The translations under genes and the position numbers were made by a program. Of a DNA stretch of 64,000 bases, positions 12,143 through 62,207 are shown piece by piece. Under the pieces are notes generated by a model. The model was not told the DNA's origin. It saw nothing but the letters and a program-made list of their open reading frames with translations, and searched no databases. How positions within the stretch are numbered: the first letter of the stretch is position 1; every line of letters starts with the position of its first letter. Source of the DNA: Astropecten irregularis (taxonomy: Eukaryota > Echinodermata > Asteroidea > Paxillosida > Astropectinidae); assembly GCA_963971285.1 (NCBI GenBank), contig OZ020259.1, positions 5,890,001 through 5,954,000 on the forward strand, written 5' to 3'.

Positions 12143-29349
<17,207 letters not shown>

Positions 29350-33981: not shown

Positions 33982-34048
33982 ATGGCTGGTCCATCGAATA
34001 TGTCGAAAGTGAAGGTGGCCGTACGGGTACGGCCCACCAATAGACGGG
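33982..34048 (+). CDS. KIF13: KIF13 coding exon 1
   Basis: Residues 1-22 plus one base; ends AGACGGG|gtaagt, phase 1. The preceding 300 bp are unique-looking and are presumably promoter and 5' UTR. Confidence 0.85.
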
Positions 34049-37000: not shown

Positions 37001-38078
37001 TCATAGACTTGTGTGTGATTTGAAGCCGTAGCCAGAATTTGCGGCAGCTGCTTCTCATAGACTAGTGTGTGATTTGAAGCCGTAGCCAGAATTTGCGGCA
37101 GCGGCTTGTCATAGACTAGTGTGTGATTTCAAGCCGTAGCCAGAATTTGGCCTAGAATACTGCACTACAAGTCAATAGGCACTATACTCTGGTGACTGTA
37201 GCAGGATAATATTACACTTACAATGATTCCCTCTGCATGGATAGTGGTGAGGATCCAACACAATACAATCTGTCCACTGGCTAGACCTGTGTACATTGAT
37301 CGAACCTCAGCACAGGGCTAACATGCCTAGCGGGTATGCCATCTGCACTAGTAAGCAGTAGGTCGTGGGTTTGAATCCCACCTGAGCCAGCGCATGATTT
37401 TTTTCATGTTTGCTCAATATGCTCTTAGTGAAGTGTTTAAATCTATGTCGTTGAAGGGCAGTAAATTGTTTGCATTTAAAACAAAACGTGATAATAAAAT
37501 CAAGAAAAAAGTAAACAATTAAGATAGATGAAATTAAAAAAAAAGAATAAATGAAGTAAATGAAATTGAAAAACTGAGCAAAGAAAAAGTTTACTGGAGC
37601 AGGACTCGATCTAGCGACTCTCGGAATACCGTTCGGGGGTCGTTTAAAAAAAGTTGAATCCCGCTTTTTCTTTGTTTCAATGATTTAGAATAATTCCAGT
37701 CAGTTTCCCTTGTGGTTATTTGAAGAAATAAAGTGAACTTGTATGAAGTTTAGGCCTATAATAAAACTATTCAAAGTGAATGAAATGTACACGAAATAAA
37801 GAGATTAATTGTATTAATGAATCCAGAAAATATGGAAAAACGCGAAAGCAAACACATGTATTTAAAAGTTAAAAAGAAAACACAACTTAGCTAAGAAGAA
37901 AAAAAAACTGCTAACAATCACTGTTCAATGCCGTGCGTCATTGTTAACAGCCTCTCACTTTTTTGTTTATTGCTCCAACATTTTTTCTTACAGAGTTAGA
38001 GCTGGGAACAAAATGCTGTGTAGATATGGATGAACACCAGACAATCCTACTGCCAGTATCCTCCAAGGCATCGGACAG
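33982..38078 (+). CDS. KIF13: Kinesin-3 motor, KIF13 type (5' partial: two coding exons)
   Basis: Exons 33982-34048 and 37994-38078 join at a phase-1 intron to give SKVKVAVRVRPTNRRELELG, then TKCCVDMDEHQTILLPVSS. This is the first beta strand of a kinesin motor followed by the segment found in KIF13A/KIF13B (RELEL/TKCVV-type in human); the split within NRR-E also agrees. KIF13 proteins are plus-end microtubule motors carrying vesicle cargo. The ATG has a strong context (AAA before, G after). The second exon ends in phase 2. The following motor exons (P-loop, switches), FHA and tail are not found up to 64,000, so the intron exceeds 26 kb and the gene continues off the right edge. KIF1 or KIF16 types are less likely given the exon-2 sequence. 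Confidence 0.85.
35376..35591. mobile_element. GACCAATTTCAT foldback element, ttaagcac subfamily
   Basis: Left gaccaatttcatagagctgg and right cagctctatgaaattgcccc. The interior resembles 40230-40466 (tgatcaaac, cataacattcacaaggag). Confidence 0.7.
35700..36040 (+). pseudogene. Two decayed non-LTR retrotransposon tails in tandem
   Basis: 35,705-35,850 repeats the WAGH..DNR..TEW tail seen at 32.25 kb (atgggcaggacacgta, acagacaatagattg, ggaatggcaaaac). 35,905-36,035 is a more decayed third copy (atgggtgggacacata). Neither retains an open reverse transcriptase. Confidence 0.55.
36104..36547. mobile_element. Foldback element, TTAGACCTT ends
   Basis: ttagaccttgatttttaa at the left and attaaaatgaaggtctga at the right. 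The inside carries gagagtgatcactctcc, itself palindromic. Confidence 0.5.
36991..37150. repeat. 54-bp tandem repeat, three units
   Basis: The unit cttctcatagactagtgtg through gaagccgtagccagaatttg recurs at 36,997, 37,051 and 37,105. Short inverted words (cggctt/aagccg) lie in each unit. Confidence 0.85.
37318..37475 (+). mobile_element. tRNA-derived SINE, third type
   Basis: A-box-like tgcctagcgggtatgcc, B box GGTTTGAATCC, then ctgagccagcgcatgat and a ggcagtaaattgtttgca tail. The same SINE sits in both arms of the large foldback (44684-44855 minus, 47932-48142 plus). Confidence 0.75.
37583..37720 (-). repeat. Fragment of the tRNA-containing inverted-repeat element
   Basis: The complement of cctgctccagt with gtcgctagatcgagtcc and gaacggtattcc matches the tRNA-like body at 53,231-53,308. 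ccagtcagtttcccttgtgg also matches sequence beside that copy. Confidence 0.55.
37994..38078 (+). CDS. KIF13: KIF13 coding exon 2
   Basis: Acceptor ttttttcttacag and donor GACAG|gtatgt. Encodes ELELGTKCCVDMDE and on to KASD, phase 1-in, 2-out, matching the KIF13 family. Confidence 0.85.
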
Positions 38079-40466: not shown

Positions 40467-40998
40467 GTCTTTACCATATAATATGCTGCTATAATGAAAT
40501 CCTGCTATATTGAACATTTGGCAGTACCAAACATCATCCTTGGCTCCCAGATTTTGGGTACAAAACACACAGAATACCAAAGCGTCTGCGATGTAATAAA
40601 CAATATCTGTGGATTCGGTCGTGTTTGATATATAAAAAACAGCTGCTTTCCACTGTACACAAATGACATGCGTGTAACTGTAATGTGCGCATTATATGTT
40701 CAGTATGTGATATGTGTACACGTACAATAATGTACATTAGTATGTGTACATTGCATCATGCTGTGTATAATTCTGGCTCCTTTACATTTTAAATACTGTC
40801 AAACATGTTAAATACTGTCAAACATGTAGGCCTATGTATACATGTACATTATTTGATGATGATCGCTTCTCCTGTCTATCATCATGTTCTATCACTGTAC
40901 ATATTAATATGCCCACATGTGATGTACACATACTATGCACTGTACAATACAGTCAGATGAATTTTCTAATTCAACCACGGATTCTTTGGGGACACCAG

Positions 40999-41132
40999 GG
41001 GCCGAGTTCACTAACGCTTTGCGATCATCGCTACAGCCCAAACCTATCGCTAAACGGTATCGATACATTTTCCGTTTAGCGATGGATTTGGGCTTTAGCG
41101 ATGACCGCAAAGCGTTAGTGAAATCGGTCCCA
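40999..41132. mobile_element. 134-bp palindrome with CAGGGGCCGAGTTCA ends
   Basis: Arms actaacgctttgcgatcatc and gccc-x-aacc/atcgctaaac. Only the terminal motif is shared with the CAGGGGCCAATTTCA elements. Confidence 0.75.
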
Positions 41133-41417
41133 GGTACAATAGCTTTAATACTACATTTCTTGTTATCAAACATTTGGACTGGACTTTGCTACACTTTGGC
41201 CTTACACAGTGTGTTATCAAGCTGAATGTTTACAGTGCTTGGGACACTGCTTGCAATGTAGGACCTACATTTAAATTTATGTAATGTTCAGCATAAAACA
41301 TTTTCCATTACCTGGGACTTACAGATCTGAACGAAACAAACTAGACTCGCGCGTGAGGTGCGCGGAGGAAAAAATTTAAATTATTAGTAGCTAGGGAGCG
41401 GGTGGCTAGCGCGCATT

Positions 41418-41775
41418 AGCGCGCGGGCTTTATTTTCTTTATAAAAAGCGGCCGAAATACTTCACACACAGGGCAGTCCCACGCACCTAGCGCGCAGGCT
41501 TTATTTTCTTTATAAAAGCGGCCGCAATACTTAACACACAGGGCAGTCCCACGCACTCCACGCACCTAGCGCGCGGGCTTTATTTTCTTTATAAAAAGCG
41601 GCCGAAATACTTAACACACAGGGCAGTCCCACGCACTCCACGCACCTAGCGCGCGGGCTTTATTTTCTTTATAAAAAGCGGCCGCAATACTTCACACACA
41701 CAGAGCAGTCCCACGCACTCCACGCACCTAGCGCGCGGGCTTTATTTTCTTTATAAAAAGCGGCCGCAATACTTC
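41418..41775 (+). repeat. 80-bp tandem array, left arm (five units)
   Basis: Each unit contains gcgcgcgggctttatt, TTTATAAAAAG, GCGGCCG and cagtcccacgcac. The first unit lacks 9 bp. The inverse array of four units is in the right arm. Confidence 0.9.
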
Positions 41776-41975
41776 ACTTGTTGGATCGACGAACCAATCA
41801 ACACCAGCGGAATGGATTGAGCTTTCTGTCTTCTACATGTTGGTCGGCCAATAGGCGACCTGTATAATCAGGACAACGACGTGCTTGGAGCGGCATCACA
41901 AAGGATTTCTTGAAGCTGCTCGAAACATTGCGACAGTAGTCACGCCCATTCAGACCGTGTTTTTCTCCCAGGCTA

Positions 41976-42113
41976 GTTTTATTTCAACTTTTCTCCCCGA
42001 CTATAGTTTTATTTCAACTTTTCTCCCAGACTATAGTTTTATTTCAACTTTTCTCCCAGACTATAATTTTATATTAACTTTTCTCCCAGACTATAGTTTT
42101 ATTACAACTTTCA
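41976..42113 (+). repeat. Short 30-bp array, left arm
   Basis: About 4.5 units of agttttatttcaacttttct, then cccagactat. Confidence 0.9.
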
Positions 42114-42866
42114 GTCTGCCGGAGAGAAGCTCCAGGATCTGAGGAAGCATTTATTTCGATCGTTTATTTCAGATGAATGTAGTAGAATAACTAATTCTTA
42201 AAGTTTTCATATTCTCTATTTAAATTTTGGTTTGTAAAATTTGTTGACTATGCAATGTCCCGACTCCCGTCGTCATCAACCAAAAGGACAAACGATCATT
42301 ACTATATTATGAAATAATAAACTTCATGGACCTCGTGGTTATTAGATGCGGCACATATGCCTTTTCACACGACATTGAAAATCTCTCAACCATTGAGAAA
42401 TTCTCTCATGGGTCTTGACTCTGGACTTCGGTCAAAATCTCTCAAGAACTCACCGGGGTTCGGCGCAACGCTGGCACGCCTGTCTGGCATTCCAAACTCT
42501 TTATTTCAGATCGAGCCTCGGGCTTATTTCAGTTTTTTGTTACACGATTACTATAGCAACACTGTTTCTAAGATACTGGAGCGTACCATGCCAGTCAAGA
42601 GCGCCAAGGCCAACGAAAGATGAATATATCAATTTATGACTGGTCGTATCTGATCCGCCCTTGTTGGATTGACGAACCAATCAACACCAGCGGAATGGAT
42701 TGAGCTTTCAGTCATAATAATAGGCCTACATGTTGGTCGGCCAATAGGCGACCTGTATAATCACGACAACAACATGCTTGGAGCGGCATCACAGAGGATT
42801 TCTTGTAGCTGCACGAAACATTCCGGCAGTAATCACGCCCAGTCAACCGTGTTTTTCTCACAGGCT

Positions 42867-44344
42867 AGTTTTATTTTATCTTTTCTCCCCGACTTTAGTT
42901 TTATTTTAACTTTTCTCCCCGACTATAGTTTTATTTCAACTTTTCTCCCCGACTATAGTTTTATTTTAACTTTTCTCCCAGACTGTAGTTTTATTTAAAC
43001 TTTTCTCCCAGACTATAGTTTTATTTTAACTGTTCTCCCAGACTATAGTTTTATTTTAACTTTTCTCCCAGACTATAGTTTTATTTTAACTTTTCTCCCA
43101 GACTTGTTTTATTTTAACTTTTCTCCCAGACTATAGTTTTATTTCAACTTTTCTCCCAGACTATAGTTTTCTTTCAATCTTTCTCCCAGACTATAGTTTT
43201 ATTTCAACTTTTCTCCCCGACTATGTTTTATTTCAACATTTCTCCAAGACTATAGTTTAATTTCAACTTTTCTCCCAGACTACAGTTTTATTTTAACTTT
43301 TCTCCCAGACTATAGTTTTATTTCAACTTTTCTCCCCGACTATAGTTTTATTTTAACTTTTCTCCCAGACTGTAGTTTTATTTCATCTTTTCTCCCAGAC
43401 TTTATTTTTATTTCAACTTTTCTCCAAGACTATAGTTTAATTTCAACTTTTCTCCCAGACTACAGTTTTATTTTAACTTTTCTCCCAAACTATAGTTTTA
43501 TTTCAACTTTTCTCCCAGACTATAGTTTTATTTTAACTGTTCTCCCAGACTATAGTTTTATTTTAACTTTTCTCCCAGACTATAGTTTTATTTTAACTTT
43601 TCTCCCAGACTAGTTTTATTTAAACTTTTCTCCCAGACTACAGTTTTATTTCAACTTTTCTCCAAGACTACAGTTTTATTTGAACTTTTCTCCCAGACTA
43701 TAGTTTTATTTCAACTTTTCTCCCAGACTGTAGTTTTATTTAAACTTTTCTCCCAGACTACAGTTTTATTTCAACTTTTCTCCAAGACTATAGTTTTATT
43801 TCAACTTTTCTCCCAGACTAGTTTTATTTTAACGTTTCTCCCAGACTACAGTTTTATTTCAACTTTTCTCCAAGACTATAGTGTTATTTCAACTTTTCTC
43901 CCAGACTATAGTTTTATTTCAACTTTTCTCCAAGATTTTAGTTTTATTTGAACTTTTCTCCCAGACTACAGTTTTATTTGAACTTTTCTCCCAGACTATG
44001 GTTTTATTTCAACTTTTCTCCCAGACTGTAGTTTTATTTTAACTTTTCTCCCAGACTGTAGTTTTATTTTCACTTTTCTCCAAGACTATAGTTTTATATA
44101 AACTTTTCTCCAAGACTAGTTTTATATAAACTTTTCTCCCAGACTATGATTTTATTACAACTTTTCTCCCAGACTGTATTTTTATTTCAACTTTTCTCCC
44201 AGACTGTAGTTTTATTTTCACTTTTCTCCCAGACTAAAATTTTATTGCCACTTTTCTCTCAGACTATAGTTTTATTTCAACTTTTCTCCCAGACTATAAT
44301 TGTATTGCAACTTTTCTCCCAGATTATAGTTTTATTACAACTTT
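42867..44344 (+). repeat. Long 30-bp array, left arm (about 49 units)
   Basis: Same unit as the short array, with occasional 25-bp units. Open frames of a 10-residue repeat come from the 30-bp period and are not thought to be coding. Confidence 0.93.
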
Positions 44345-44683
44345 CAGTCTGTCGGAGAGAAGCTCCAGGAACTCAGGAAGCATGAATGTCGTAGAATAAC
44401 TAAGGTTTAATATTCTCTATTTAAATTTTGGTTTGTAAAATGTGTTGACTTTGCAATGTCCCGTCGTCATCAACCAAAAGGACAAGACGATCATTACTAT
44501 TATGAAATAGTAAACTTCACCTCGTGGTTATAAAGATGCGGCACATAGCACTTTTCACATGAAATGCACATCGGCTGTGTTATCTTTAGTTGGGAGAATT
44601 GAGATTTTGAGAATTGAGAATTAAGATTCCCATATACATGTAATAGATTTATCCGCGGAGGAGATATATAATAATAATGCAAA

Positions 44684-44855
44684 CAATTTATTACCCTTCA
44701 ACCACGCTGATAAGCACTTCACTAAGTGCCTTTGAGCACATTTTTATGAAAAAAGCATGCGCTAGCTCAGGTGGGATTCAAACTCACGACCTCCTGCTTA
44801 CTAGTACACATGTACAGTGCAGATGCCATACCTGCTAGGCACCAAGCTAGCTGGG
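44684..44855 (-). mobile_element. SINE, third type, in the left arm of the foldback
   Basis: Complement of the element at 47932-48142; B box on the minus strand (GAGTTTGAATCCCAC). Confidence 0.7.
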
Positions 44856-45452
44856 GGTCAGTAGAGTGAATCGCAGAGTGGTGCTTTGTTATATTTTACG
44901 TGTGCAAAGGCACTCAATGAACTTATTGAAGTGCTTATCATTATCAACGTGGTTTAAGAGCAATGTTGTATGCATTTATATTCCCATACATGTGCAACGT
45001 GTACTCAGTATGCAGTAGCATAGTCAAAGGCGCCTGAATAAAAAATAGGTCAGCGCGTATTCACGCACAACGCGCTTCTTGGCCAGGTTCAGACCGTACC
45101 CTACATACAATGTTCATGTTTTATATTGAAATTAGGGTTAGGTTAATTTGTAGTACACGGTTTAAGGCCTAATGGTGAAATACGCGCAGTATAGTAGTTC
45201 ACACACGACGCGCTAGCGCTGTATACACTAGCATCAGACAAGGTAGGCCAGGGCCGGCTGGCAGTAGGGGCCTAGCCTACGGCACACAAAATGTAGGCCT
45301 AAATATCATGACACAAAGTGCCTCGTGTACGTTTCATTTAATTAACTCAAATCCCGTTTTTATTCGGGAAATCAAATCAAATGTTTGCTAAAACTTGCTT
45401 TATTCTCTCTCTTGTCTCTTGAAGTCACGGTCCATTCATGGATTTACGTCCC

Positions 45453-47268
45453 AGATTTCGTAAATCCTTTTTAATTTTAGGGTAGCAGCGGCCTATGTAT
45501 GTATCAAATACTTTGGGTAACAAATAATACGCTGAATTTCAACAAGACTATATTAATCATTATGGATCTTTCAACTTGTATATAAACGACCGAGGAAAAC
45601 ATACCCATTAATTCTACGCCAAGATTCTCTCTAAATAAGAACAATTGCTTGTTAATCAATTATTTTTTGATACATGTAGTGATTGGATAAAGTAAAATTC
45701 GAACGATTATGTTGTGTTGTGTTCCCCCTTATTGTACTAATTACGATCACAGTTAAGGAGTACTTGAGTCAAGATGATTCACCCTGCCTGATACATGTTT
45801 AAAAAATAATGCTATCCAACACAAGTAAGCTTATTCTTGTATGAATTTTCTATGATTGTCAAGTCTGACACACATACCAGAAAACTGCTACAATGTAATA
45901 CATTTTAGGGCAGGAGAGCAGCTGGTTCTCCAAAAACAATATAATATAATGTCCACGCGGCTAGCGCGCGGGCGAGTTGTCAGGCCTACTTACTGGTGTA
46001 GCCTTCATTCAAGACGCGATAGTGAACAAAATGTCTCGCTTACACAAGAAGTGGGTTGTCATCGGCCCGTTGGCTGTTTTGCTTTTCACCACGCTGAAGA
46101 AAAGTGACAAACTCATGACCTTATTCCAATCCCCGATTAATAAGTAATATTAATTAATTCATGTGGGATAGACGTTTAAAACATGACGAGACAATTCTCA
46201 TACACAAAAAAAAAAAAAAGTGAGTCACCGTATAACATTGACAGTCATTATTTTGGAGAAACTATACCACCGGTTCTTCTCATAAACACACTCTCACAAA
46301 AGAGGTTACATGGCGTCTCCGCAAACCTTCCTTATTTTACTCCCAACTCTGCTTGGAGTTCTACTTCTTATATTGTTTCATTCAGATTTTAAACAATATT
46401 CAATATGCCTCAGACCGAACCAGAGGCGTACAATTGGAACCTCCTTCCCTTTTATAGGACTGTAGTAATTAACATTTGGATAGGTCTGTTTCGATCCGCT
46501 TCTATTTTTATTGGTGGCTGTAATTGCCAACAATTTTGTCCATGTGCTTATAAGTTTTGGGTCATCGGCAATCCTTTTTCACGGCAATCCTTATGCTTAG
46601 AGGGAGTTAGAGCTGCAGTTTTGTAGTGTGCGAGCACAATATTCTTCATGCACTACATACGTAAGTGTAGGGTAGCCTACCCGTAGGCGCGGCCTATGCG
46701 CAAGGCCTGTGAACACCGGCCCGGCCAGCTAGCATGCAATGTACTTTACAGTGTACATTTGTGTACATGTTTATGGCGTATGTCGACATACTGTATCCAT
46801 AGGACATGTACTGAACTTCCCTACAAAATAAATGTAATACTATGTTGTCGCGTCTGACCTCTGACCTGTGGCAAGCCGGTAATAAATGACACGGTGCGCT
46901 GACCTTTTTGTCAACTGCTGAGCTGAGCTAAATAAAGTATATGTACACGGTTTAATAAGTATCACTATCGGTTCATAATCATTAATACTTGTACACTGTA
47001 TATGTACATGTACATACATGTACATTACGGTACATTTACAAATGAAGGGTATCCTATGGGTCATTAAGTAATGACATTTTCCGATTCACGAATAGGTGTA
47101 TTTTCATTTGAGATCCAACAGAATAATTTGATATTGAAGTATTTACATGAAAAAGTGTGAACAAAAGACAAAAGAGAAATTGGAATTAAAATCGAATTGG
47201 GACAAAAACATGAATGTAACTAAATTTCGGTATGCATACTGAGCTTATCAATTCATTCATTTTGATAT
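45453..47268. other. Spacer of the giant foldback
   Basis: Unique 1.8 kb between the arms, A/T-rich, with a poly-A run at about 46,206. No conserved protein and no inverted arm sequence was recognised. Confidence 0.7.
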
Positions 47269-47931
47269 GGGACGTAAATCCATGAATGGACCGTGACTTC
47301 AAGAGAGAATAAAGCAAGTTTTAGCAAACATTTGATTTGATTTCCCGAATGGAAACGGGATTTGAGTTAAATAAATGAACCATACACGAGGCACTTTGTG
47401 TCATGATATTTAGGCCTACATTTTGTGTGCCGTAGGCTAGGCCCCTACTGCCAGCCGGCCCTGGCCTATCTTGTCTGATGCTATGTATACAGCGCTAGCG
47501 CGTCGTGTGTGTACTACTGCGCGTACTTCACCATTAGGCCTTAAACCGTGTACTACCGTAGAGCTATATTAAATTAACCTAACCCTAACCCTAATTTCAA
47601 TATAAAACATGAACATTGTATGTAGGGTACGGTCTGAACCTGGCCAAGAAGCGCGTTGTGCGTGAATACGCGCTGACCTATTTTTTATTCAGGCGCCTTT
47701 GACTATGCTACTGCATACTGAGTACACGTTGTAGATGTACATGTACACTGTACATGTACATGATATGTATGTGTATCATAATATAAATGCATACAATATA
47801 TTGCTCTTAAACCACGTTGATAATGATAAGCACTTCAATAAGTTCATTGCCTTTGAACACGTTAAAAAATCAAGCGCTATTTCAATTGAAATAACAAAGC
47901 ACCACTCTGCGATTCACTTTACTGATCCCCA

Positions 47932-48142
47932 GCTAGCTTGGTGCCTAGCAGGTATGGCATCTGCACTGTACTAGTAAGCAAGAGGTCGTGAGTTCGAATC
48001 CCACCTTATTTATTATTTCTTTCTTTCTTTCTTATTTTTTTATTTTTGGTTTACCTGAGCTAGCGCATGCTTTTTTCATATGTGCTCAAAGGCACTTAGT
48101 GAAGTGCTTATCAGCGTGGTTGAAGGGTAATAAATTGTTTGC
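47932..48142 (+). mobile_element. SINE, third type, in the right arm of the foldback
   Basis: A-box-like gcctagcaggtatggc, B box GAGTTCGAATCCC. It carries about 48 bp of T-rich sequence (about 48006-48053) that is absent from its left-arm partner. Confidence 0.7.
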
Positions 48143-48526
48143 ATTATTATATATCTCCTCCGCGGATAAATCTATCACATGTATATGGGAATCTTAATTC
48201 ACAATTCTCAAAATCTCAATTCTCCCAACTAAAAATAACAAAGCCTGCATTTCATGTGAAAAGTCCTATGTGCCGCATCTTAGTAACCACAAGGTGAAGT
48301 TTACTATTTCATAATAGTAATGATCGTCTTGTCCTTTTGGTTGATGACGACGGGAGTCGGGACATTGCATGGTCAACAAATTTTACAAACCAAAATTTAA
48401 ATAGAGATTATTAAAACTCAGTTATTCTACGACATTCATCTGTCCTAATAGGCGGGTGAAATAAACGATGTAAATAAATGCTTCCTGAGTTCCTGGAGCT
48501 TCTCTCCGGCAGACTGAAAGTGATAT

Positions 48527-48988
48527 AATACTATAAAGTCTGGGAGAAAAGTTGCAATAAAATTATAGTCTGGGAGAAAAGTTGAAATAAAACTATATTC
48601 TTGGAGAAAAGTTAAAATAAAACTATATTCTGGGAGAACAGTGAAAATAAGACTATATTCTGGGAGAAAAGTTGAAATAAAAATAAAGTCTGGGAGAAAA
48701 GTTGAAATAAAACTATAGTCTGGGAGAAAAGTTGAAATAAAACTATAGTCTGGGAGAAAAGTTGAAATAAAACAAGTCTGGGAGAAAAGTTGAAATAAAA
48801 CTATAGTCTGGGAGAAAAGTTGAAATAAAACAAGTCTGGGAGAAAAGTTAAAATAAAACTACAGTCTGGGAGAAAAGTTAAAATAAAACTATAGTCTGGG
48901 AGCAAGTTTAAATAAAACTAAAGTCTGGGAGAAAAGTTAAAATAAAACTATAGTCGGGGAGAAAAGTTAAAATAAAACTAGCCTGGGA
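48527..48988 (-). repeat. 30-bp array, right arm, inner
   Basis: About 15-16 units of tctgggagaaaagttgaaa with taaaactatag, the complement of the left-arm unit. The left counterpart has about 49 units. Confidence 0.92.
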
Positions 48989-49727
48989 GAAAAACACGGT
49001 CTGACTGGGCGTGACTACTGCCGCAATGTTTCGAGCAGCTACAAGAAATCCTTTGTGATTCCGCTCCAAGCATGTTGTTGTCGTGATTATACAGGTCGCC
49101 TATTGGCTGACCAACATGTAGGCCTATTATTATGACAGAAAGCTCAATCCATTCCGGTGGTGTTGATTGGTTCGTCAATCCAACAAGGGCGGAACAGACA
49201 CGGCCAGTCATAAATTGATACATGTATATTCATCTTTCGTTGGCCTTGGCGCTCTTGACTGGCATGGTACGCTCCAGTATCTTAGAAACAGTGTTGCTAT
49301 AGTAATAGTGTAACAAATAACTGAATGCCCGATGCTAGATCTAGCCCGATGCTAGATCTGAAATAAAGAGTTTGGAATGCCAGACAGGCGTGCCAGCGTC
49401 GCCCAGAACCCCGTGAATCCTTGACAGATTTTGACCGAAGTCCAGAGTCAAGACCCATGAGAGAATTTCTCAATGGTTGAGAGATTTTTAATGTCCTGTG
49501 AAAAGGCATTATGTGCCGCATCTTAATAACCACGAGTTGAAGTTTACTATTTCATCATAGTAATGATCGTTTTGTCCTTTAGGTTGATGACGACGGGACA
49601 TTAAACCTTAGTTATTATTAGAGAATATAAAACCTTAGTTATTCTTCGACATTCATCCGTATAGGCGGGTGAAATAAACGATGTAAATGCTTCCTGAGTT
49701 CCTGGAGCTTCTCTCCGGCAGACTGAA

Positions 49728-50353
49728 CGTTGCAATAAAATTATAGTCTGGGAGAAAAGTTGAAATAAAATTACAGTCTGGGAGAAAAGTTGAAATAAAA
49801 CTTTAGTCTGGGAGAAAAGTTTAAATAAAACAAGTCTGGAGAAAAGTTAAAATAAAACACTATAGTCTGGGAGAAAAGTTGAAATAAAACAGGTCTGGAG
49901 AAAAGTTGAAATAAAAATATAGTCTGGGAGAAAAGTTGAAATAAGACAAGTCTGGAGAAAAGTTGAAATAAAACTATAGTCTGGGAGAAAAGTTAAAATA
50001 AAACTATAGTCCGGAGAAAAGTTGAAATAAAACTATAGTCTGGGAGAAAAGTTGAAATAAAACAAGTCTGGAGAAAAGTTGAAATAAAACTATAGTCTGG
50101 GAGAAAAGTTGAAATAAAACAGGTCTTGAGAAAAGTTGAAATAAAAATATAGTCTGGGAGAAAAGTTGAAATAAAACAAGTCTGGGAGAAAAGTTGAAAT
50201 AAAACTATAGTCTGGGAGAAAAGTTGAAATAAAACAGGTCTGGAGAAAAGTTGAAATAAAACTATAGTCTGGGAGAAAAGTTGAAATAAAACAAGTCTGG
50301 GAGAAAAGTTGAAATAAAACTATATGGTCGGGGAGAAAATTTCAAATAAAACT
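49728..50353 (-). repeat. 30-bp array, right arm, outer
   Basis: About 22 units, many shortened (aacaagtctggagaaaag). The left counterpart has only about 4.5 units. Confidence 0.92.
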
Positions 50354-50630
50354 AGCCTGGGAGAAAAACACGGTCTGACTGGGCGTGACTACTGCCGCAA
50401 TGTTTCATGCAGCTACAAGAAATCCTTTGTGATGCCGCTCCAAGCATGTCGTTGTCCTGATTATACAGGTCGCCTATTGGCCGACCAACATGTAGAAGAC
50501 AGAAAGCTCAATCCATTCCGCTGGTGTTGATTGGTTCGTCGATCCAACAAGGGCGGATCATATACGACCAGTCATAATATATTCATCTTGCGTTGGCCTT
50601 GGCGCTCTTGACTGGCATGGTACACTCCAG

Positions 50631-51364
50631 TATAAATAGGGGCTCCAACTCCGGAATTTTTCGTCGAGGTTTACTCCTGAAGCCTTTTCCAAGAATAGAT
50701 GAATTGCCGCAAGACAGAAAGAAATCGACACCAATGAATCTGACACTGTTGTTTCATGCTTGCCCACGAAATTATGATTAAAGCGAATTTTTGGGTGACT
50801 TTAAGGGGCTGTCCCCTACAAACACACCACACGCGCAACTTAAGAAATCACTTTTTGCAGCCTTACACATCCTACACTTCAAACCTTTTGCACTCAAAAT
50901 TATGGTTAAATCCTGCTGGACTAGACTCTCGCACTAATACTAATTTAAATTCGGACAGGTTAGTCAAATTTTCAATCCTCTTCGTCCCCAGTTTAAGAAA
51001 ATCCAGCACGATATCTCAACTTCATTCATACCAGAATGTGGGTTTTATGGGGTTGGTTGGTGGAACCGGGAACCTTTTAAAAAAAGTGCCTATCGGCAAG
51101 CATCTAAGAAAATTCGGCAACCGATTAAAATAAAATTGAGAGGGCCGGTTTTACAAAGACTAGCCCATTCTTAAGAAGCAAAACCAACCGTATCGGTCTT
51201 CCTTTTCGTAATCAATTGGGTGGGGAAGTATCTGGGAAGATTGTGGATTGCCGGGAACAGCCGAGAATAAAATAGTTTTCTTTTGTACAGAAAATAATAC
51301 CCATAACAAGCGGGGAGAATCCGCAGCTGTTCTTAGCTGCTTCGTGGAACAGGCACGGCATAGG
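50631..51364 (+). other. Right-arm-only segment of the foldback, with a TATA-like start
   Basis: TATAAATAGG at 50631 marks where the right arm leaves the sequence of the equivalent module (compare 49268-49300). The next 730 bp have no counterpart in the left arm. A 125-codon frame (50756-51133) resembles nothing known. Confidence 0.5.
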
Positions 51365-51655
51365 CATTGCTGCCGGTTTTATAAAGAAAATAAAGCCCGC
51401 GCGCTAGGTGCGTGGAGTGCGTGGGGCTGCTCTGTGTGTGAAGTATTGCGGCCGCTTTTTATAAAGAGAATAAAGCCCGCGCGCTAGGTGCGTGGAGTGC
51501 GTGGGGCTGCTCTGTGTGATAAGTATTTCGGCCGCTTTTTATAAAGAAAATAAAGCCCGCGCGCTAGGTGCGTGGAGTGCGTGGGACTGCCCTGTGTGTT
51601 AAGTATTGCGGCCGCTTTTTATAAAGAAAATAAAGCCCGCGCGCTAATGCGCGCT
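51365..51655 (-). repeat. 80-bp tandem array, right arm (four units)
   Basis: Complement of the left-arm array: ttataaagaaaataaagccc, then gcgcgctaggtgcgtgg. Differences such as ctgctctgtgtg distinguish units. Confidence 0.9.
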
Positions 51656-51887
51656 AGCCACCCGCCCCCTAGCTACTAATAATTTAACTTTTTTCCTCCG
51701 CGCACCTCACGCGCGAGTCTAGTTTGTTTCGTTCAGATCTGTAGGAATGGCTGACTCCAAGCTCCTACATTATTAAACCATTATGAAGTAATACAACCAA
51801 GACCTTGCCTTGCATTCCCTACACTGTACACCATACCCTTGTAATGGCTTAGACCTCTTAATTACATTTAGAAAGAACAACTACAGA

Positions 51888-52316
51888 CAATGGGAGACTT
51901 TGGAGTTTTGCAGGGCCCAATTTCATGGAATCCGTTACCGTTAGCAAAAATTCTTTGCTTACTGTAGCAGATGTTTGTTGGTTACGGTAAGCGTATTTCA
52001 CGGAAGAAATTCCTTGTGCAGAATTTGTGCAGAATGCATACGACAGCGCGTTAGCTGAAAATGATCACGGTTACCCTAGAAATTCTTCGCTAACCGAAAG
52101 TTACTTACCGAAAGTTACTTTGCTTACGGATTCCATGAAATAGATTTCACGCGTAGCAATGCCCATAAGCACAAAAATAGACTGTGACGGATTCCATGAA
52201 ATTGAGCCCCGGTCTTCAAGTCAACAGCGCACGCATGCGCAAAACAACGCGCATGCTCACAATTTGGTGCGCGTGCGCTGTTGACTTGAAGACCGGTTCT
52301 CCAAAGTCTCCCATTG
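51888..52316. mobile_element. CAATGGGAGACTTTGGAG palindrome interrupted by another element
   Basis: The outer palindrome is split after aatgggagactttggag and resumes at ggtcttcaagtcaac. The insert at 51911-52210 has its own inverted ends. Confidence 0.8.
51911..52210. mobile_element. CAGGGCCCAATTTCATGGAA foldback element (nested)
   Basis: Inverted ends cccaatttcatggaatccgt and ggattccatgaaattgagccc; the interior has cttaccg/cggtaag words. A relative is at 60390-60742. Confidence 0.75.
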
Positions 52317-52323
52317 ATGAATG

Positions 52324-52604
52324 CCTGGAGCTAATTTCATAGAGTTACTTATTACAAAAAAAATGTTCTAACCGGTAAGCATGAAAAATCTTCCTTGATC
52401 AAATGGGATTGCCAACCAAATGTCCACCATATGATACTGCTTTCGACTTGTATAATTTGTCCAAATGTGTTTGCTAGGATAACAGTCACTTGTAAGGAGT
52501 TTTGGCTGGCATAGGCCTAGGCCTACTGATTGTATACGATGTATCAATGTTTTTGGTGCTTAAATAACTTTAGCTGCTAAGCAGCTCTATTGACTTGGCC
52601 CCTG
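52324..52604. mobile_element. GGAGCTAATTTCATAGAG foldback element, degenerate
   Basis: Interior ggtaagcatgaaaaatcttc and cttgatcaaatggg match the 40230 subfamily. The right end is gcagctctattgacttggcc. Confidence 0.65.
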
Positions 52605-53155
52605 GGCTGTCAGTAGGGATGTGGATGACTGATTGGACCATTAAGCACTTGACATCATGACACTGAGGGGGTTAAAGGTTGACAAGCTTCTGGTTTGTAC
52701 AATGTTTGGTTTCTGTCAAGTGCACAATCTCTCCTCAATGCTTAAGTTGGGGGCGTGACCCTTTGTGTAGTGTGCAGAGGATCACCTTACTGTGGTACAC
52801 ACTGTACATGTACAAGTGCAACCTCTGCCTCAAGTTGAAGTGTTAGGGGTGTATTTTCCCTGGGAATGGGGTTTGCCTGGAATTGGTAATTTCTGGTGGG
52901 AAGTTTGGGTTTATTAATTGCATAGTACATACATGTACATGTAGACATTCATTAGGCCTAAATATAATGAAGAGGTTTATTTATCTAGATGTATTTATTT
53001 ATTGTGTGTAAATATTACATAAATTGAGTGTACATAATATTTATTTATTTAGTTATTATTTTCTTTTCTTTAAATATCTGCCCTCTAATTGGCATTGTAT
53101 TGCTGTTGGATGAGATTAATAAATTAATAGAAAATGTACATGTACAATAACTTAT

Positions 53156-53336
53156 AAGTCATTGAAAAGTGCCAAATGAACAAAGCTACATGTAATTGAC
53201 TATTGGGGACACCACCAATGTACATGTAGGGCTGGCCGGGATAGCTCAGTTGTTAGAGCGCCTGTACGGTATTCAGGAGGTCGCTAGTTCAAATCCCACT
53301 CCAGTCAATTTTTCTTTGTTCACCTTTCAATGACTA
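53156..53336 (+). mobile_element. tRNA-like body inside inverted repeats
   Basis: agtcattgaaaagtg, gaacaaag and attgact on the left face agtcaat, ctttgttcac and ctttcaatgact on the right. The body (53231-53308) has TAGCTCAGTTGTTAGAGC, an anticodon-stem-like cctgtacggtattcagg, and AGTTCAAATCC. Confidence 0.7.
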
Positions 53337-53840
53337 GTTAAAATTCAGTCAGTTTCCCTTATGGTTATTGATGATTATACACATACATTGTACATGTACG
53401 TGTACATTATACAGTAATGAACAATACATGTAGGCCCTACTGATAGCCATTGGTTTTTATGGAAGAGTTACATGTATAGGCCTGTGGGCCCTACATGTAC
53501 GAATTTAGTAAACTTTTTGTATGGTCCTAAACCTTGCCCTGCATGTGAATGAACTTCCCAAACCTGTTAGAGTAATTATCCCGACTGGACCATTGTCATT
53601 TCTGCACTGGCCGTCATCGGTACTACCCCAAATTACAATGGATTTATAACTAGATCAGGAAGGAAACCGGCTACTGTACAGATTTCTGGACCCCGTGTGG
53701 TCCAATAAGTGCATTGTGTGTATGTACACAGTACCTGTATCTAGGCAGAAACCGGTACTTGGCAGAAACCGGTATCCTTGATTTGTCTGTCTGGGATAAT
53801 AATGCATGATCCCATCATAAATCCCATTCTTCCTATCTAG

Positions 53841-54075
53841 GGGCATTTACGAAACAGAGGTTAAGGCTCAGGCTTAGGCTCAGGCTCAAGCTCTGATATA
53901 ATGCTGAAAATATAGGTTGTGGATTTTCATTGAAACTGAAGCTCTGTTTTCCTTTTCAAACTAGAGAATGTACTTCAGTACCGCAGCCATAAGCCTCGAT
54001 TTTGATACCCGTTATTTTAGAATGAATTCACGACATGGAGCCGAAGCCTGAGACGGAGCCTGAGCCTTTGTTGCA
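53841..54075. mobile_element. Foldback element with GGCTCAGGCTC hexamer ends
   Basis: gggcatttacgaaacagagg at the left; gagacggagcctgagcc at the right. Interior aaactgaagctctgttttcc. Confidence 0.75.
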
Positions 54076-55545
54076 CTGCTTCAAATGTAGGATGGATGCA
54101 CCGTGAATAAGCTTAGCCTATTGGTACAGCTCTCCACAGTGATCAAATCTAGCCCCCTTAAATTTCTTTTATTGTCTGGAATTCTGTTTTGTTTCCATCA
54201 AAAGAGATCAGCCTCGTAGCTCTTTGATTGGTGGAATTATTTGGATGGAGACCACCAGACTAGACAATTTATTAAATCCACAGTAACAGCGTAGTCCAGC
54301 TCAATTTTTTAAAGAATTTAGTTCACTGATTTATCAGCTTTGAAAGGTTTATCAGGGAAGGTTCATGACAACGCCCCCCCCCTCCTTCCTCAACCCAGAG
54401 ATCTGCAAATTTTCAGATTTTAATCTGAAATCAGATTTTTGTTTCTATTTTTTTACCCAATTATTCCGGTTTTTTTTCTCCCTTCAAATGTTCTGAATGG
54501 TACAATTTTATTTTCAAGTCTCCTTTGATGATATTCACTTATCTTCTGTGGTACTGCCTTGGATCGTGCTGTGTGTCTACACGAAGGAACATACTGTACA
54601 TGTAAATGACTATTTAGCTATAACACAGTCATTTTCAGATATTTTTGTCTTTGGCCGTGTATTTGCATAGTCTATGTGATAGACGCATTTGCCGTACAGC
54701 GAGTGAGCATCTATCATGTGTGCAGATTTCCTGATTGATTATGCAAGCCAACCCAGCACTGACCACTCTAAGATTTGACCAATCAGGCGGCATTTACTGT
54801 CGTACCGTTTGGCGAGTGCGTCTATTTATACATAGATCCATGTACATATTGTAGCTGCTGCCGTGCAAATGCGCGAAATTGACCAATCAGCATCCTCCGT
54901 CACAATCATACATTGACGGAAATATTCTCAAAACAGATCTGATTAGCTGATATGTGCCGCGTTGTATAAAATTTGCATGTACGCATGTATCAGACGTTTC
55001 TATCAAGCCCTTTCAAGTGTGTCTGTAGCAAACATATTGCTTTAATTTTCTGAATAGGTTTTGTACATGTATATTCCAAGTTCTGGACAGAAATTTGTTT
55101 TATTTAATTTGGCCGATATGAATCATGAATGTATTGAATGACGCAATTGCATTGTGGTGCACGGTGAATGTGTTGTGCAGTGTGAACATCTGTGGATCAT
55201 TCATTCTTTCACATGGTACATTGAGCCTATATACACTGTACAATGTACAGTAACCATGAGACATTGAGTATTTCACAGAAAACTCCATGAACCAAGTGTT
55301 CACTACACACGTACCTAATGTACATGATACACAGCAAGTGTTATTGAAGTATTTTTCATCCAATCCATAGAGGACCAGCTGTTTGGTGTAAAATAAATAG
55401 TCATTTTTGTATACATACTGTTCAGTACATTGTGCATGACAAACCATTTTGTAATTTGCACATATGTACACGTTAGTGTACATGTACAGTATACGTGTAC
55501 ATGTATTGTAGGCCTCCTATATTTTTGGTAGACAGTATTTGACTA

Positions 55546-55733
55546 CAGTGGAACGCCGCTATAACAAATAGCGCTATATCAAACATTTGGCTATATGGAA
55601 CATCATCCTTGGCTCCCAATTTTTATGTACAATGTATATTAGGCCTGCTGAACATTGTTTACTGTAACGAATGACCACTATAACGAACAATTTCTTTGCA
55701 TCCCGGCGTGTTCGTTATTGTGGCGATCCACTG
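55546..55733. mobile_element. CAGTGGAACGCC pogo/Tc1-like MITE with TA duplication
   Basis: Ends CAGTGGAACGCCGCTATAAC and gtggcgatccactg, flanked on both sides by TA (55544-55545, 55734-55735), as for Tc1/mariner-pogo elements. Confidence 0.75.
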
Positions 55734-55994
55734 TACTTCTCTATGTACATGTACATGTACAGTATGTACTGTGTAGGTCTACATACAATGTGTACGATTA
55801 TGTCCTATGCAGGGTACACTAAAATTGGATCTGGATCCGCAGGATCCGTCATAAACAAACAGGCCCTTTGTAAATAATAATAATAATAATCACATTTATA
55901 AAGCGCCTTTTACAAAATGATACAAGTTTTTGTCTCTTCCATCAAATTTCCACACATCTGATACTAATAACAGATGCCTACCGTGCCCCCTATT

Positions 55995-56815
55995 GTTTGT
56001 TTGTTTGTTTGTTTGTTTTATTTCCATTCATACTTCCAACATACAATGAATAAAGATTAATGATTAAAACAAGTGTATCAAAATAGAAAAAGCAGAACAA
56101 TACAGCATGAATGGGGGTGGCATCCAGAGAAGGACTAGCCTTCTGTAGTGGAGCACCCGAGACTGCGGTCAAAGTAAACTACATGTATTTGGAATAATGC
56201 AAACAATAAGATCCCAGGTAGAGTTTATAAATGTAGTAAGTTCAAACATAAAGTGAGCACATACAAAAACATAAAAGTCGTATACATAAAGGAGAAAAAA
56301 ATAGGGAAAAAAGGAATTAACGTCTTGCTGAATGTAGGCACGAGTAGCAGTTAAGATTTGTACAAACAAAATCATTGTACTTATTTAAATAGAATTCCTT
56401 GAGGTGTTTAACAAAAAGCTTTTTGGATGAACTGACCAGAAGAAGTCTAAGTTGATCAGGAAGACCATTAACAATTCGAGGCAAAATATTACGGTAATTA
56501 GCTGATGTTATGTCCAGTCTAAATGTACTACTACAATGAATACAATTACTTTGTCTTGTAGAATAATGGTACAAGTCCTGGTTTAGTGGGAAAAAAGACT
56601 GATGGCTTAAATTCTCAGGAAGTAGTTTATGAAAGTAATCGTAATAATGAGTAACAATGTGTACATTAAATACATCACCAAACTTAAGAATTCTAAATTT
56701 ATTACAAAGTGGAGTGGTATGCGCATTGTATTTAGCATGACAGGCATTTCTTATACATTTCTTTTGTAGTGTTACAAGTCTGCATTGTGTGCATGCAGGA
56801 AGCACGTGTGTTAAC
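55995..56815 (-). pseudogene. CR1/Jockey-like non-LTR retrotransposon 3' end
   Basis: On the minus strand a 162-codon frame (56805-56317) reads as the C-terminal part of a reverse transcriptase: LQKKCIRNACHAKYNAHTTP, then YNYFHKLLP-like YDYFHKLLPEN, YSTRQSN and ILPRIVNGLPDQLRLL. It is cut off at its 5' side and ends in TGA/TAA-rich 3' sequence, finishing in a run of AAAC repeats (tttg x6 at about 55996-56019), typical of this superfamily. The catalytic FADD-type region is absent, so it is a dead copy. Confidence 0.75.
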
Positions 56816-58949
56816 AGAGGGATGTTGGTGTTTGGTTAAATGAAGCATTGATGATGAAATGTTTTAAATTCTTCATTTAAATTGGTAACTTTCGAGGCCT
56901 TTTTCACAGTTACCAAAAATCTGCAAGTTGCACACTGGTCCAACTCATAATGTGTAACTTGCTTGCCACACTACGGCCGCTGTGGACCCAGGCTCCTGAC
57001 TCTTGTTGAAACTAAACCTTCTCGTGAGATGGGTTCTGAACAGTTGACCCGTAACTTGACCATATATGGAAAATTTGGACGTGTGAGTGTGACTGTGTCG
57101 GAGAGTGATGGTTTGAACACCTTGAAGTGCAATCCATTTAGTGTTAAGTGGTGTGAATGCAGAGCATGATTGACCCCTGTTGAAATTTGAAGAGTTTGTA
57201 ACATGGGGTGGGGGTGGACATGTGTGAATCTTGACACTTGTAAAAAATACTGCAGTGTGAAAACGCATGACAAGTTGATACTTTACATACAGTACATGTA
57301 GGCCTACCTGTAGCCCATAGGCAGTAGAGCTGGGGATTTATCTCGAATAATTAATTGATTATTAATCATGTTGACATTTTTGTGATGATTACTCAATTAG
57401 TTCATTCTCAACTACTCGATTAATCGTAACGGCGCAATTAGTGCCTTTGAGTGGCGATCATTTCCATGAGCTAAGTTCTCAGTCACAAACCATGGTACAT
57501 GTAATGTATAATACACCTGCTCTGGTGTATGAGCTACTAAACCTAAATCTAAACCGGCTAGTAAAATCTGAAGTGAGCTGGCTCGATGGGCTAGCCAGGA
57601 AAAAAAGTTAGCACAAGGCCTGCTTGGTGCTACATGTACATGTATTGAATACGGTAGGGCCTACTCAAGATGCTGTACAACTTTCTAATTCCTCTCAATC
57701 CTACATTTACTCCTTCTGTTGTCGATGTTCTAGTTTTACCTGCAGGCTTTTTTATGCACTTAGTAAATCAATGTGTACATGTATACATGACATGTACATT
57801 TACATGTACATGTACATGTACACTGTAGGCCTACATAATGTACACAGTACATGTACAGTGTATAGGCAAACCCATTTGCGAGACCCTTGGTGAAAACCTT
57901 GACTTTGGCGATGAACCGCTTTCAAATGTCACCATGGACTGTGCGATTTTTCCATCAGAAGTGACCTTTATCAAGGGTGGGCTAAAAAAAAGAAGTTAAC
58001 ACCGCCTTGCTGTCTCGCCACATCTGAAATTCAAGGCCCGGAACCAGTCTGTACATGCGTGTAAAATCCACTTGGGTATGAGGCCGAGACCAATACCGAA
58101 ATTCCCACATAGCTTCGAAAACGGCAAACGGTGTTCTCCCCAATACAGTGCATAGAACATAACGTAGGCTTACAATCTCTCACGCAAGTGGAAAATCTCC
58201 ATTGGTTTTCTCAGCGGTGCCTAAATGGACATGCGACGTGCTAAGTTAAATGTTAAGTGCATACTTTTTCTGCTTCAGTAAGCAGCGAGCCGACGCCGCT
58301 AATAATGGTTTAACCTTAACCGTGAAATTGAGCAGGTATTTTTGTGTGCATCTTTCAGCTTTAAGAAATTAAAATAAGAAGCAGCTAAGGGATTTCTCCG
58401 GGCCGTGACAATTTACTTTGGTAACGGAATAAAAGAAAGGGAAAAAAAAAACCTTCCCAAATTGAGCCAAAAAAAGATGAAAAAGAAAGAAATAGGCAAA
58501 ACAGGAAATTTGAGTTCTGAAGCAAGCGAGCTTTAGTCAGCTGCCAGAGGGGTTGACTTAAATTCTCCCCTATTTTTGTGTCCAGTAACTTGGGTCTGGC
58601 AGGCCTCAGGCCAGCACGGGGCTAGGACAGAGAAAATGGATTGGTCCTCAGTATGATTGGACAAATGAGCAGCCAGAGCCTAGCACCTCTTGGTTTTTTT
58701 TCTCTCTCTCCTGGGCTTGCCCTGCCTCAATCTCACGCCCCATTGACTGCTTTATTGGTGCAAAGTGCCCCTCGCAGGCAAAATGGAAAGTGATCCATGG
58801 GTTGCTTGGGCCTGATGGGCAGCAGTCTGCAGTACGGGCGGCAGCGAAGTAAAAACGTGTTAACTTGCTCTCGCTCTTGATACAATTGTGATTGGAGATC
58901 TCAGATCGTTGTGTCACTTGATACACAGGTTCCATGTACATGTAAACCT

Positions 58950-59191
58950 GGGGCCAATTTAATGAAACTGTTAAGCACAACAATTTGCTTAGCACAAAAA
59001 TGTCTCGCCCAATAAAACAAACCACCAATTGAAAATTCCATTTGATATTCGTGGTCGGCGAACAACAGCCAAAGAACAATCGCAAGTGATACACAACACA
59101 TGGACATTTGTTTGTTAACCCTGTTTTTATTAAGACAGAAATGTCATGCTTAGCAAAATTTTGTGCTTAACAGTTTTATGAAATTGGCCCC
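58950..59191. mobile_element. GGCCAATTTAATGAAACTG foldback element
   Basis: Complete copy, inverted relative to 26565; arms taagcacaacaatttgctta and ttttgtgcttaacag. Confidence 0.78.
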
Positions 59192-59526
59192 AGCTGGAGA
59201 AGGATACAGTTGGATGTGGGTCAGAAAAGGCAGCTTTTCTACACAATGCTCTGCAACATCATCATGTACATGTACATGTATATTGCTGCAAATCTCAGAA
59301 ACATTATATATGGGGGATCACTCAAAGATGATGCGGCAAGTTAAGTACATGTAGTCTCTTTTTTTACGTAAGGAGCAATCGATTCCAAACGTATGTTCCA
59401 GAGCAGACAAAATCTACGAAGCTAGGTCTTGCTTGATACAAGGATCCCATGCTGTATTTGATGTTTCAAGTGTTGTACAGTATCAGTTGAAATCAGTTTT
59501 GCATACATGTAGCTCTAACTTACTTT

Positions 59527-59544
59527 GGCCCTTTTCCACACCTC

Positions 59545-59579
<35 letters not shown>

Positions 59580-59802
59580 CGGCTCTGGCTCCGGCTCCGG
59601 CGCTGTCATCCATATGCTGAAAATATAGGTTGTGGCTTTTCATTTAAGCCGAATCTCTGTTTTTTGTGTGTTAAGAATAGAATATCTACTTCCAAACCGT
59701 ATGCAAAAGCCTCTATTTTGATACCCCTTATTTTAGAATGGATTCACGAAATGGAGCCGGAGCCGGATCCTGAGCCGAAGCCGCGATTTGGAAAAAGCCC
59801 CT
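59527..59802. mobile_element. Foldback element with expanded GGCTCA hexamer end
   Basis: Left end ggcccttttccacacctcgg followed by about nine hexamers. The right end gccgcgatttggaaaaagcc has far fewer. Confidence 0.75.
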
Positions 59803-60182
59803 AAAGAGCCTTAATGTACATGTAGGTTTAAATGCATCCCTCCCCCTCAGAGAAAGATTGATCTATTTACAAATTACAGTAAACCTCATCGGCAGTTCCC
59901 AGAATTTTGTCCCATCACTTCAACTTTTCAGCTGCTAAGTGCTATTTTATTCAGGAGATGTACAAACAGACCTATAAAATGCAGCACGTCTTGCAATTGT
60001 TGGACACAATAATTCAACCAGTAGGGGTCTATATTATGTACAATGGGTGTGGCAGTGGTAATGAAAAGCTATGCCTTAAATGAACAGTTTGAAATGCAGT
60101 ACTTACGAATTTGGTTTTCAGGCAGTAAGGCCTACATTAATGTACATGTACCATAAACGCACTCGTGAGTATGTATACAACT

Positions 60183-60385
60183 GAATTTCACGGTTTTGCT
60201 AAGCATGACATTTCTGTTTTAATAAAAATAGGATGAACAACCAAATGTCCATATGTATTGCTTGTGATTGTTCTTTGGCTGTTGTTCACTAGCAATGAAC
60301 ATCAAATGAAATTTTTGACATTTTGGTGAGCACTAAGCAAATTTTTTTGCTTAGCAAGTTAGCAGCGCCATGAAATTGGCCCCTG
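60183..60385. mobile_element. CCAATTTCA foldback element, left end lost
   Basis: Begins at aatttcacggttttgctaag and ends gccatgaaattggcccctg. Confidence 0.7.
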
Positions 60386-60389
60386 ATCT

Positions 60390-60742
60390 GAGCCCAATTT
60401 TATGATTCTGCTTACCGTAGAATTTCAAGCTTACACATGTACATGTACAATATAATCCCCATTCTACGCTTACTGGGCTAGCACCGATTTTCTGTGTTAC
60501 ATGTACATGTATGTACTGTAAGCAGTACAGTAAATCCTAAGTTACGCAGACTACTACTACCTGTACATGTATACATTGTACACGTGTGCACGACTGAAAA
60601 TTCTTTGCAATTCATTGAAATAAGATCTCCTAAATTGTACAGAATGTTCTGCTTCTGTAAGCGCCGATTCTACGCGTAGTACGTAAGCGCCGATTCTACG
60701 CTTAGTACATTATTATAAGCAGAGCCATGAAATTGGGCCCTG
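60390..60742. mobile_element. GAGCCCAATTTTATGATTCTG foldback element with inner repeats
   Basis: Ends gagcccaattttatga and agccatgaaattgggccctg. The right part has two copies of cgccgattctacgc. Starts 4 bp after the preceding element. Confidence 0.65.
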
Positions 60743-61063
60743 TTGAATTGCCTCGAGAGAGAGAGGAAAAAAAAACGGTACTCAAATGTTTTTCATCTCG
60801 AAGTGATTTAGTCGTGATGCGACTGTACTTTGCTTCACCATGGTTTCACTATCTCAGTTCAACCTGTAGGTTGTATTTGATATATATGGGGCTTATAGTT
60901 ACATTCAGCAATTACTGTGAGGAGTGCACAAGCTTTACAGTTACACATTAGACTGCGCAGTGTAGGAGGCTCAACAGGAAATTGAGTAGATTTCGAGTCG
61001 GAAGTGGGGGTGGGGGATAGGGGGTGGGGGGAATTGGAGGAGAGTATGTGAAGTGCACATTGC

Positions 61064-61087
61064 GGGGGGGGGGGGGGGGGGGGGGGG
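61064..61087. repeat. Poly-G tract (24 G)
   Basis: An uninterrupted run of 24 G following several ggggtgggg words. The length is sensitive to sequencing error. Confidence 0.8.
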
Positions 61088-61340
61088 ACGTCATCAGTTC
61101 TCGTTAGACCGTCGCGCACTCCCGACAGAGAGAAGTGCAGTCGCACTCGGCCAAACTCCCGCCATCAGGAGCGAGTACGGCGGACGTCAGGCTTCCGTAT
61201 CAGATGAGTCGTTGCCACGGCAACCGACCCCATCTGAGCGGCGCAGACGGTCATCAGTTTATAAGTGTGTGTGGATTGCGCAGTGTGCGTACAGTCTGAC
61301 GTGGAGGGCTCGTTCATTTGGCTTTGAAGTGCAAAATTAG
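61088..61340. other. CpG-rich block next to the poly-G tract
   Basis: gacgtcatcag (half CRE-like) followed by about 230 bp rich in CpG (gaccgtcgcgcactcccgac, gagtacggcggacgtcagg), unlike the A/T-rich surroundings. It could be an alternative promoter or first exon; no splice or protein support. Confidence 0.35.
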
Positions 61341-62204: not shown

Positions 62205-62207
62205 TTG

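Follow-up and report, generated by a model that had tools for sequence, protein, structure and literature searches.

The 64,000-nucleotide stretch of the Astropecten irregularis genome analysed here (contig OZ020259.1, positions 5,890,001 to 5,954,000; hereafter the window) contains a 10.4-kb palindromic element, which is very probably a dispersed, non-autonomous foldback DNA transposon that inserts at TA and is presumably mobilised in trans. The element belongs to a family whose copies share exact ends, mirrored arms and a common spacer, and at two of its insertions the target TA is duplicated.

A multi-kilobase palindrome with mirrored modules

The element spans window positions 41322-51741 (10,420 bp, CAGATCTGAACG...CGTTCAGATCTG) and is flanked by TA at 41320-41321 and 51742-51743. 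Its left arm (41322-45453, 4.1 kb) and right arm (47268-51741, 4.5 kb) enclose a 1.8-kb spacer (45454-47267), and inverted repeats, built partly from tandem repeats, make up 8.6 of its 10.4 kb, as expected of a foldback element. A first-pass annotation of the same DNA had described a palindrome at 41331..51742 with arms and spacer of these lengths; self-comparison confirms the palindrome and agrees with the lengths, but sets the start about 10 bases further out. In this comparison (window 40800-52300), ungapped inverted pieces were up to 97% complementary, and gapped segments extended to 1.8 kb at 83-90%. By contrast, 50 approximately dinucleotide-preserving shuffles yielded no inverted match of 60 bp, the longest being 20. 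Inverted pairs of at least 150 bp are also found outside the element, with 15 in 1-41200 and one in 51801-64000 (the longest among the seven matches listed is 369 bp). Short inverted repeats are thus common in the window, and only the multi-kilobase mirrored order of the element is exceptional.

Paired modules of the two arms are closely alike. Aligned in register and with gaps excluded, the termini are 97.8% identical between arms, the outer M blocks 96.7%, the inner M blocks 96.1% and the inner arms 97.1%, and the B blocks are less alike (outer 93.0%, inner 94.8%). The two M copies within one arm are 92.8% identical in one arm and 94.3% in the other. Such similarity, together with the mirroring of arrays and of a short interspersed element (SINE), is what a one-off palindromic duplication of repeat-rich, immobile intronic DNA would also produce, an origin that the first-pass annotation had kept open beside a transposon.

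Copies with the same ends at other loci

Relatives of the element were sought in the assembly from which the window comes (475.7 Mb, 168 contigs; contigs are designated by C-numbers, and the window copy is C23). With the outer 201 bp as query, 66 matches were found. Six complete two-ended copies, including the window's, lie on five contigs and share the same ends, modules and spacer; they measure 10.36-12.22 kb (C23, 10,420 bp; C8a, 11,625; C20, 12,218; C11, 11,363; C10, 11,543; C8b, 10,357). In a seventh copy, C30, the left arm and spacer align with the window copy over 5,911 bp with 4 substitutions and a single 1-base gap, and the left flank is different from that of the window copy. A 200-N assembly gap just short of the spacer end hides the right half of C30, as might happen if this arm resists assembly. 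Judged by this low divergence, the window element probably moved recently as a unit.

The spacer likewise has long matches at at least eight loci (eight among the best 40 of 906 candidates scored). Relative to the window spacer, that of C30 differs by 0.06%, C20 by 1.28%, C10, C8a and C11 by 2.6-3.2% and C8b by 5.5%. The C8b spacer is inverted relative to the plus strand, which for a palindrome means only the opposite orientation. Within the spacer, a stretch of about 76 bp at window 46264-46341 (spacer query about 804-881) is 81-90% identical to a repeat present on many contigs.

More distant relatives are also present. C1a is an old copy with one end kept, C1b is a 207-bp short form with both tips, and degraded short relatives lie at C22, C10b and C27. 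Single ends were found at C11b, C14, C18, C19 and C25, with interiors unknown or decayed within the 14-15 kb read. With up to 3 mismatches allowed, the genome holds 24 occurrences of the 26-nt tip and none of its reversed control. A 16-nt tip gave 34 matches, of which 19 are exact and all correspond to known ends; the other 15, with one mismatch, comprise 5 known ends and 10 new sites, compared with 15 matches for the control.

These copies bear on whether the palindrome could be an assembly artefact, a false inverted copy. Palindromes are easily misassembled, and the C30 copy does end in a gap of 200 Ns; yet six separately placed copies have two complete ends and arm-specific differences, and we consider an artefact scarcely credible.

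Insertion duplicated a TA at two loci

Every one of the 24 tips has a T directly before the A of ACAGATCTG; the A was part of the search pattern and the T was not. With palindromic ends, a target duplication can be shown only through empty sites. Searches for them covered the flanks of the C20, C10, window, C8a and C11 insertions. The C20 copy lies in a host repeat of about 1 kb, and all six uninterrupted paralogues fetched hold a single TA at the junction. The C10 copy lies in another repeat, and four of the five uninterrupted relatives fetched hold a single TA, the fifth having AA. A single target TA has thus become a 2-bp TA duplication at both insertions. The host repeat of C20 itself occurs in short tandem runs over many contigs, for example on C20 near 8397300-8400900, where the foldback sits in one unit.

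Dispersed copies, a target duplication and empty sites (at two copies, not the window's) are what a mobile foldback should leave, and the first-pass annotation had proposed, as a check, to look for other copies that share these ends and have a target duplication; its proposed searches of the genome with the outer end and the spacer also returned matches, as described above. A one-off duplication, in contrast, does not account for the same ends, modules and spacer at loci with different flanks, nor for clean TA empty sites at two of them, and we reject it as having almost no remaining probability.

The target site also bears on a comparison with the TU elements of sea urchins, to which the palindrome had been likened. 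TU elements have modular inverted repeats with tandem repeats, an 8-bp duplication and shorter arms. The likeness holds for the modular, tandem-repeat arms but fails at the target, where the duplication is a 2-bp TA and not the 8 bp of TU or the 8-10 bp typical of TU/Mutator-type elements; it is by its described features, not by its sequence, that TU is set apart here. Passages of PMC4079207 mention a sea-urchin foldback and suggest that most foldbacks are Mutator elements, which would favour such a membership; given the 2-bp duplication, we nevertheless regard a place among TU or Mutator-type foldbacks as very unlikely. The 7-bp duplication of Galileo and the P superfamily was not found either. 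What the two insertions do have is the duplicated TA of the Tc1/mariner-pogo superfamily.

Module anatomy of the window copy

Both 80-bp and 30-bp tandem arrays are present in the window element. On the left arm (all modules on the plus strand), the target TA, whose duplication is shown at two other insertions rather than at this one, is followed by terminus T (CAGATCTGAACGAAACAAACTAGAC..., 41322..41420), the source of the 26-nt tip used in the genome search. Inward of it lie the left 80-bp array (A80, 41417..41774), the outer M block (41777..41960), the outer 30-bp array (A30, 41961..42111), a B block (42108..42572), the inner M block (42573..42852), the inner 30-bp array of about 50 units (42853..44344), a second, shorter B block (44345..44559), the S block (44560..44960) and the inner arm I (44990..45453). 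The spacer, to which no strand is assigned, is common to at least seven other loci. On the right arm (all modules on the minus strand) follow I (47268..47731), S (47804..48245), the inner B block (48249..48520), the inner 30-bp array of 16 units (48517..48993), the inner M block (48994..49280), the outer B block (49281..49727), the outer 30-bp array of 22 units with a 57-bp higher-order period (49729..50367), the outer M block (50368..50633), a U block (50640..51365), the right 80-bp array (51366..51646) and the right terminus T (51643..51741), which abuts the right target TA.

Mirrored arrays and blocks had been described, together with a mirrored SINE. The module order is indeed mirrored, except that the 726-bp U block is found in the right arm only; and of the two S blocks, the left-arm copy alone matched the Rfam transfer RNA (tRNA) family (33.7 bits, E=5e-4), at a tRNA-derived, SINE-like stretch on the minus strand (44763-44848).

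Across the family, the arms share an order that runs inward from T through an 80-bp array, U, one to three cassettes (M, 30-bp array, B), S and I to the spacer, with array lengths and cassette numbers varying between copies. The U block is present in both arms of four other copies (C8a, C10, C11 and C8b), in the right arm only of the window copy and C20, and is missing from the one assembled arm of C30 (the left). The simplest reading of this pattern is a shared loss from the left arm, inherited through transposition.

Trees of individual modules group arms by lineage. In the inner-M tree the arms of C10, C8a and C11 cluster against the rest (100/99), in the U tree the six U copies of these three elements cluster at 88/88, and the two arms of C8b pair with each other in the U (100/100) and I (98/94) trees. 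This grouping suggests that one arm was copied onto the other before the most recent transpositions.

The 80-bp unit bears an inverted copy of a subterminal motif, with a score of 28, whereas none of 1000 shuffles scored above 25 (0/1000 as good); the other three of the four comparisons of a unit with the end, in direct orientation or with the 30-bp unit, gave nothing. Given this motif, the 80-bp array looks like multiplied end sequence and is a candidate binding site. In the short form C1b, the last 42 bases are the right end, joined to left-arm sequence, and the join is read as lying inside the shared motif. A deletion running from a left-arm 80-bp unit to the right end may therefore be how short forms originate.

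The spacer and the source of transposase

No conserved gene was found in the spacer among the seven copies compared (C11 is partly deleted and C30 is cut by the gap). Of 56 spacer indels that separate the window copy from the six others, 42 are not multiples of 3. Ten open reading frames (ORFs) were compared with Pfam, three of them from other copies (the C20 spacer frame and two U-block frames) and seven from window frames; none scored above the cut-off, and two weak matches fell below it. We read the spacer as noncoding, and by this sequence analysis the element looks non-autonomous.

Genes for transposases of the type that we take to target TA, the DDE_1 and DDE_3 enzymes, are present elsewhere in the genome. 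Profile searches gave at least 11 DDE_3 and at least 61 DDE_1 matches, some with long open frames; the Transposase_1 profile had 0 matches in this genome and likewise 0 in control genomes. A DDE transposase between the same ends, as a member of the Tc1/mariner-pogo superfamily would carry, was not found, and we do not file the element as a member.

One candidate coding form was considered and dropped. C1a has a DDE_3 match 14.1 kb from its tip, which proved to be a broken Tc1-like gene within its own weak inverted repeats (13590358-13592762, 47 bp at 83%). The surrounding C1a flank (13589500-13596000) contains no family module and two matches to the 16-nt tip, none better than 4 mismatches.

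Two further observations concern transposase genes in this genome. The DDE_3 (Tc1-type) matches at C8:4445610 and C28:10112032 have equal scores and equal 399-amino-acid open frames, perhaps those of a recently moved Tc1-like element. At C11:19.5-21.5 Mb there is a cluster of many DDE_1 (pogo/CENP-B type) matches.

Host gene and neighbouring repeats

The first-pass annotation had placed the element in a KIF13 intron. With the N-terminus of human KIF13B as query, two weak but collinear plus-strand matches were obtained, one at 34003-34047 (residues 4-18, E 0.006) and the other at 37993-38073 (residues 19-45, E 0.018). Nothing else in the window matched below E 1. It is plausible, though not proven, that a KIF13-like gene starts upstream and that the element lies in its next intron.

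The window also contains a second, far smaller hairpin, with arms at 8604-8796 and 9394-9602 that are 85% alike over a 209-column alignment and mostly coincide with 16-bp tandem arrays. At 13521-15098, close upstream of exons that resemble MCM3 by eye, about 19 copies of an 81-bp unit, 97% alike, form another tandem array.

Discussion

How could an element of this size move without a gene? The ends would be bound by a cut-and-paste transposase that is specific for TA, belongs to the Tc1/mariner-pogo group and acts in trans, and the 80-bp arrays would offer extra binding sites copied from the element end; binding to both terminus and array is proposed by analogy with Galileo. The arms would grow by tandem amplification and would be kept alike by occasional arm-to-arm copying, through gene conversion or hairpin-templated repair. 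In its fullest form this scenario has gene-less hairpins of 10-12 kb moved in trans, with end motifs, selfishly multiplied as several 80-bp units per arm, recruiting scarce transposase and copying maintaining the arms. We put it forward tentatively, as a proposal that we doubt slightly more than we trust.

Several observations weigh against a gene-less, trans-mobilised element or against parts of its mechanism. An ATG-initiated spacer ORF of 131-141 amino acids, with a like start position, is open in three of the seven copies (C20, C10 and C8a), and in the remaining four it is broken or missing; it may be the remnant of a lost gene. No transposase was recognised in the copies or, with the same ends, near other tips, and none of the DDE_3 or DDE_1 matches listed lies within 14 kb of a tip, so that it is the TA duplication by itself that points to the superfamily; a donor transposase with diverged ends may exist elsewhere in the genome. 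For the window, C8a and C11 insertions, whose flanks were searched together with those of C20, no empty site turned up among the best 37 of 4,329 candidates. As for the arms, the inner M blocks of the window copy and C20 differ by 1.8% left to left and 2.1% right to right, compared with 4.6% left to right within the window copy; arms have been inherited separately within this lineage, and copying is not universal. The pairing of window and C20 in the U tree (100/100) involves right arms only and is silent on copying. Many tree forks are open, for which reason arm-to-arm copying is only a moderate claim.

Some of these points would suit an autonomous family whose transposase-bearing copy is missing from the assembly or sits in an unassembled palindrome, the window copy being a Galileo-like two-arm derivative. 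Transposase must have come from somewhere for the apparently recent movement, the C30 copy disappears into a gap, the spacer ORF is open in some copies, and passages of PMC4168063 place a transposase-less Galileo copy of 9,021 bp in a family with coding members. Against this, all seven copies share one spacer without a recognisable gene, rather than assorted deletions, and there are no extra paired tips in the genome. We consider an autonomous family unlikely, although it is much the most serious competitor to a non-autonomous foldback mobilised in trans.

If gene-less hairpins are indeed moved by a TA-specific transposase in trans, the family would count as a Tc1/mariner-pogo foldback of a size not met in the literature compared. 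Foldbacks are thought to have arisen independently in several superfamilies, and a TA-duplicating family would add a route from a TA-type transposon. An array unit that resembles the element's own end would give a concrete test of whether long repetitive arms collect transposase, and several complete copies in one genome allow module growth, loss and exchange to be traced.

Among known systems, TA-type relatives provide small precedents. The Tc1/mariner-pogo superfamily duplicates its TA target, and Tc6 of C. elegans is a small TA-type foldback. Mcmar has repeat-built, longer inverted ends of 355 bp in the passages of PMC3169594; the arms described here are more than ten times that length and share the TA target of Tc1/mariner-pogo elements, but come with no transposase. 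The open-access literature showed no giant foldback with a TA duplication, as far as titles and the starts of abstracts among the matches listed indicate, and none was evident in passages of PMC4079207, PMC3573991, PMC3688188, PMC3169594, PMC3259105 and PMC4168063.

Foldbacks assigned to other superfamilies offer closer structural parallels. In the parts of PMC4079207 and PMC3169594 consulted, foldbacks are mostly Mutator elements (PMC4079207), and the Mutator-assigned Tetris and Tm1 have long inverted repeats with tandem arrays, non-autonomous copies and relatives resembling miniature inverted-repeat transposable elements. The present element is like them in its long tandem-array inverted repeats and unlike them in its 2-bp duplication and arms of 4.1-4.5 kb, as against duplications of 8-10 bp and, for Tetris, arms of at most 1,735 bp. 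FB of Drosophila is likewise counted among the nearest known foldbacks. The closest structural match, in passages of PMC4168063, is copy 112 of Galileo (P superfamily, Drosophila) in D. willistoni, which also has two long, repeat-filled arms and no transposase: it is 9,021 bp long, with arms of 4,246 and 4,680 bp that both contain tandem repeats as well as captured pieces of transposons. Passages of PMC3688188 report that Galileo tandem repeats hold sites bound in vitro by the THAP domain of its transposase. Unlike Galileo, which has a 7-bp target duplication (passages of PMC3573991), the present family duplicates a 2-bp TA, and all six of its complete copies are long-armed with one common spacer. 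Thus, size and modularity alone are not new, given the Galileo copy; what is new is the TA duplication, a giant form that is constant across the family, and apparently recent mobility.

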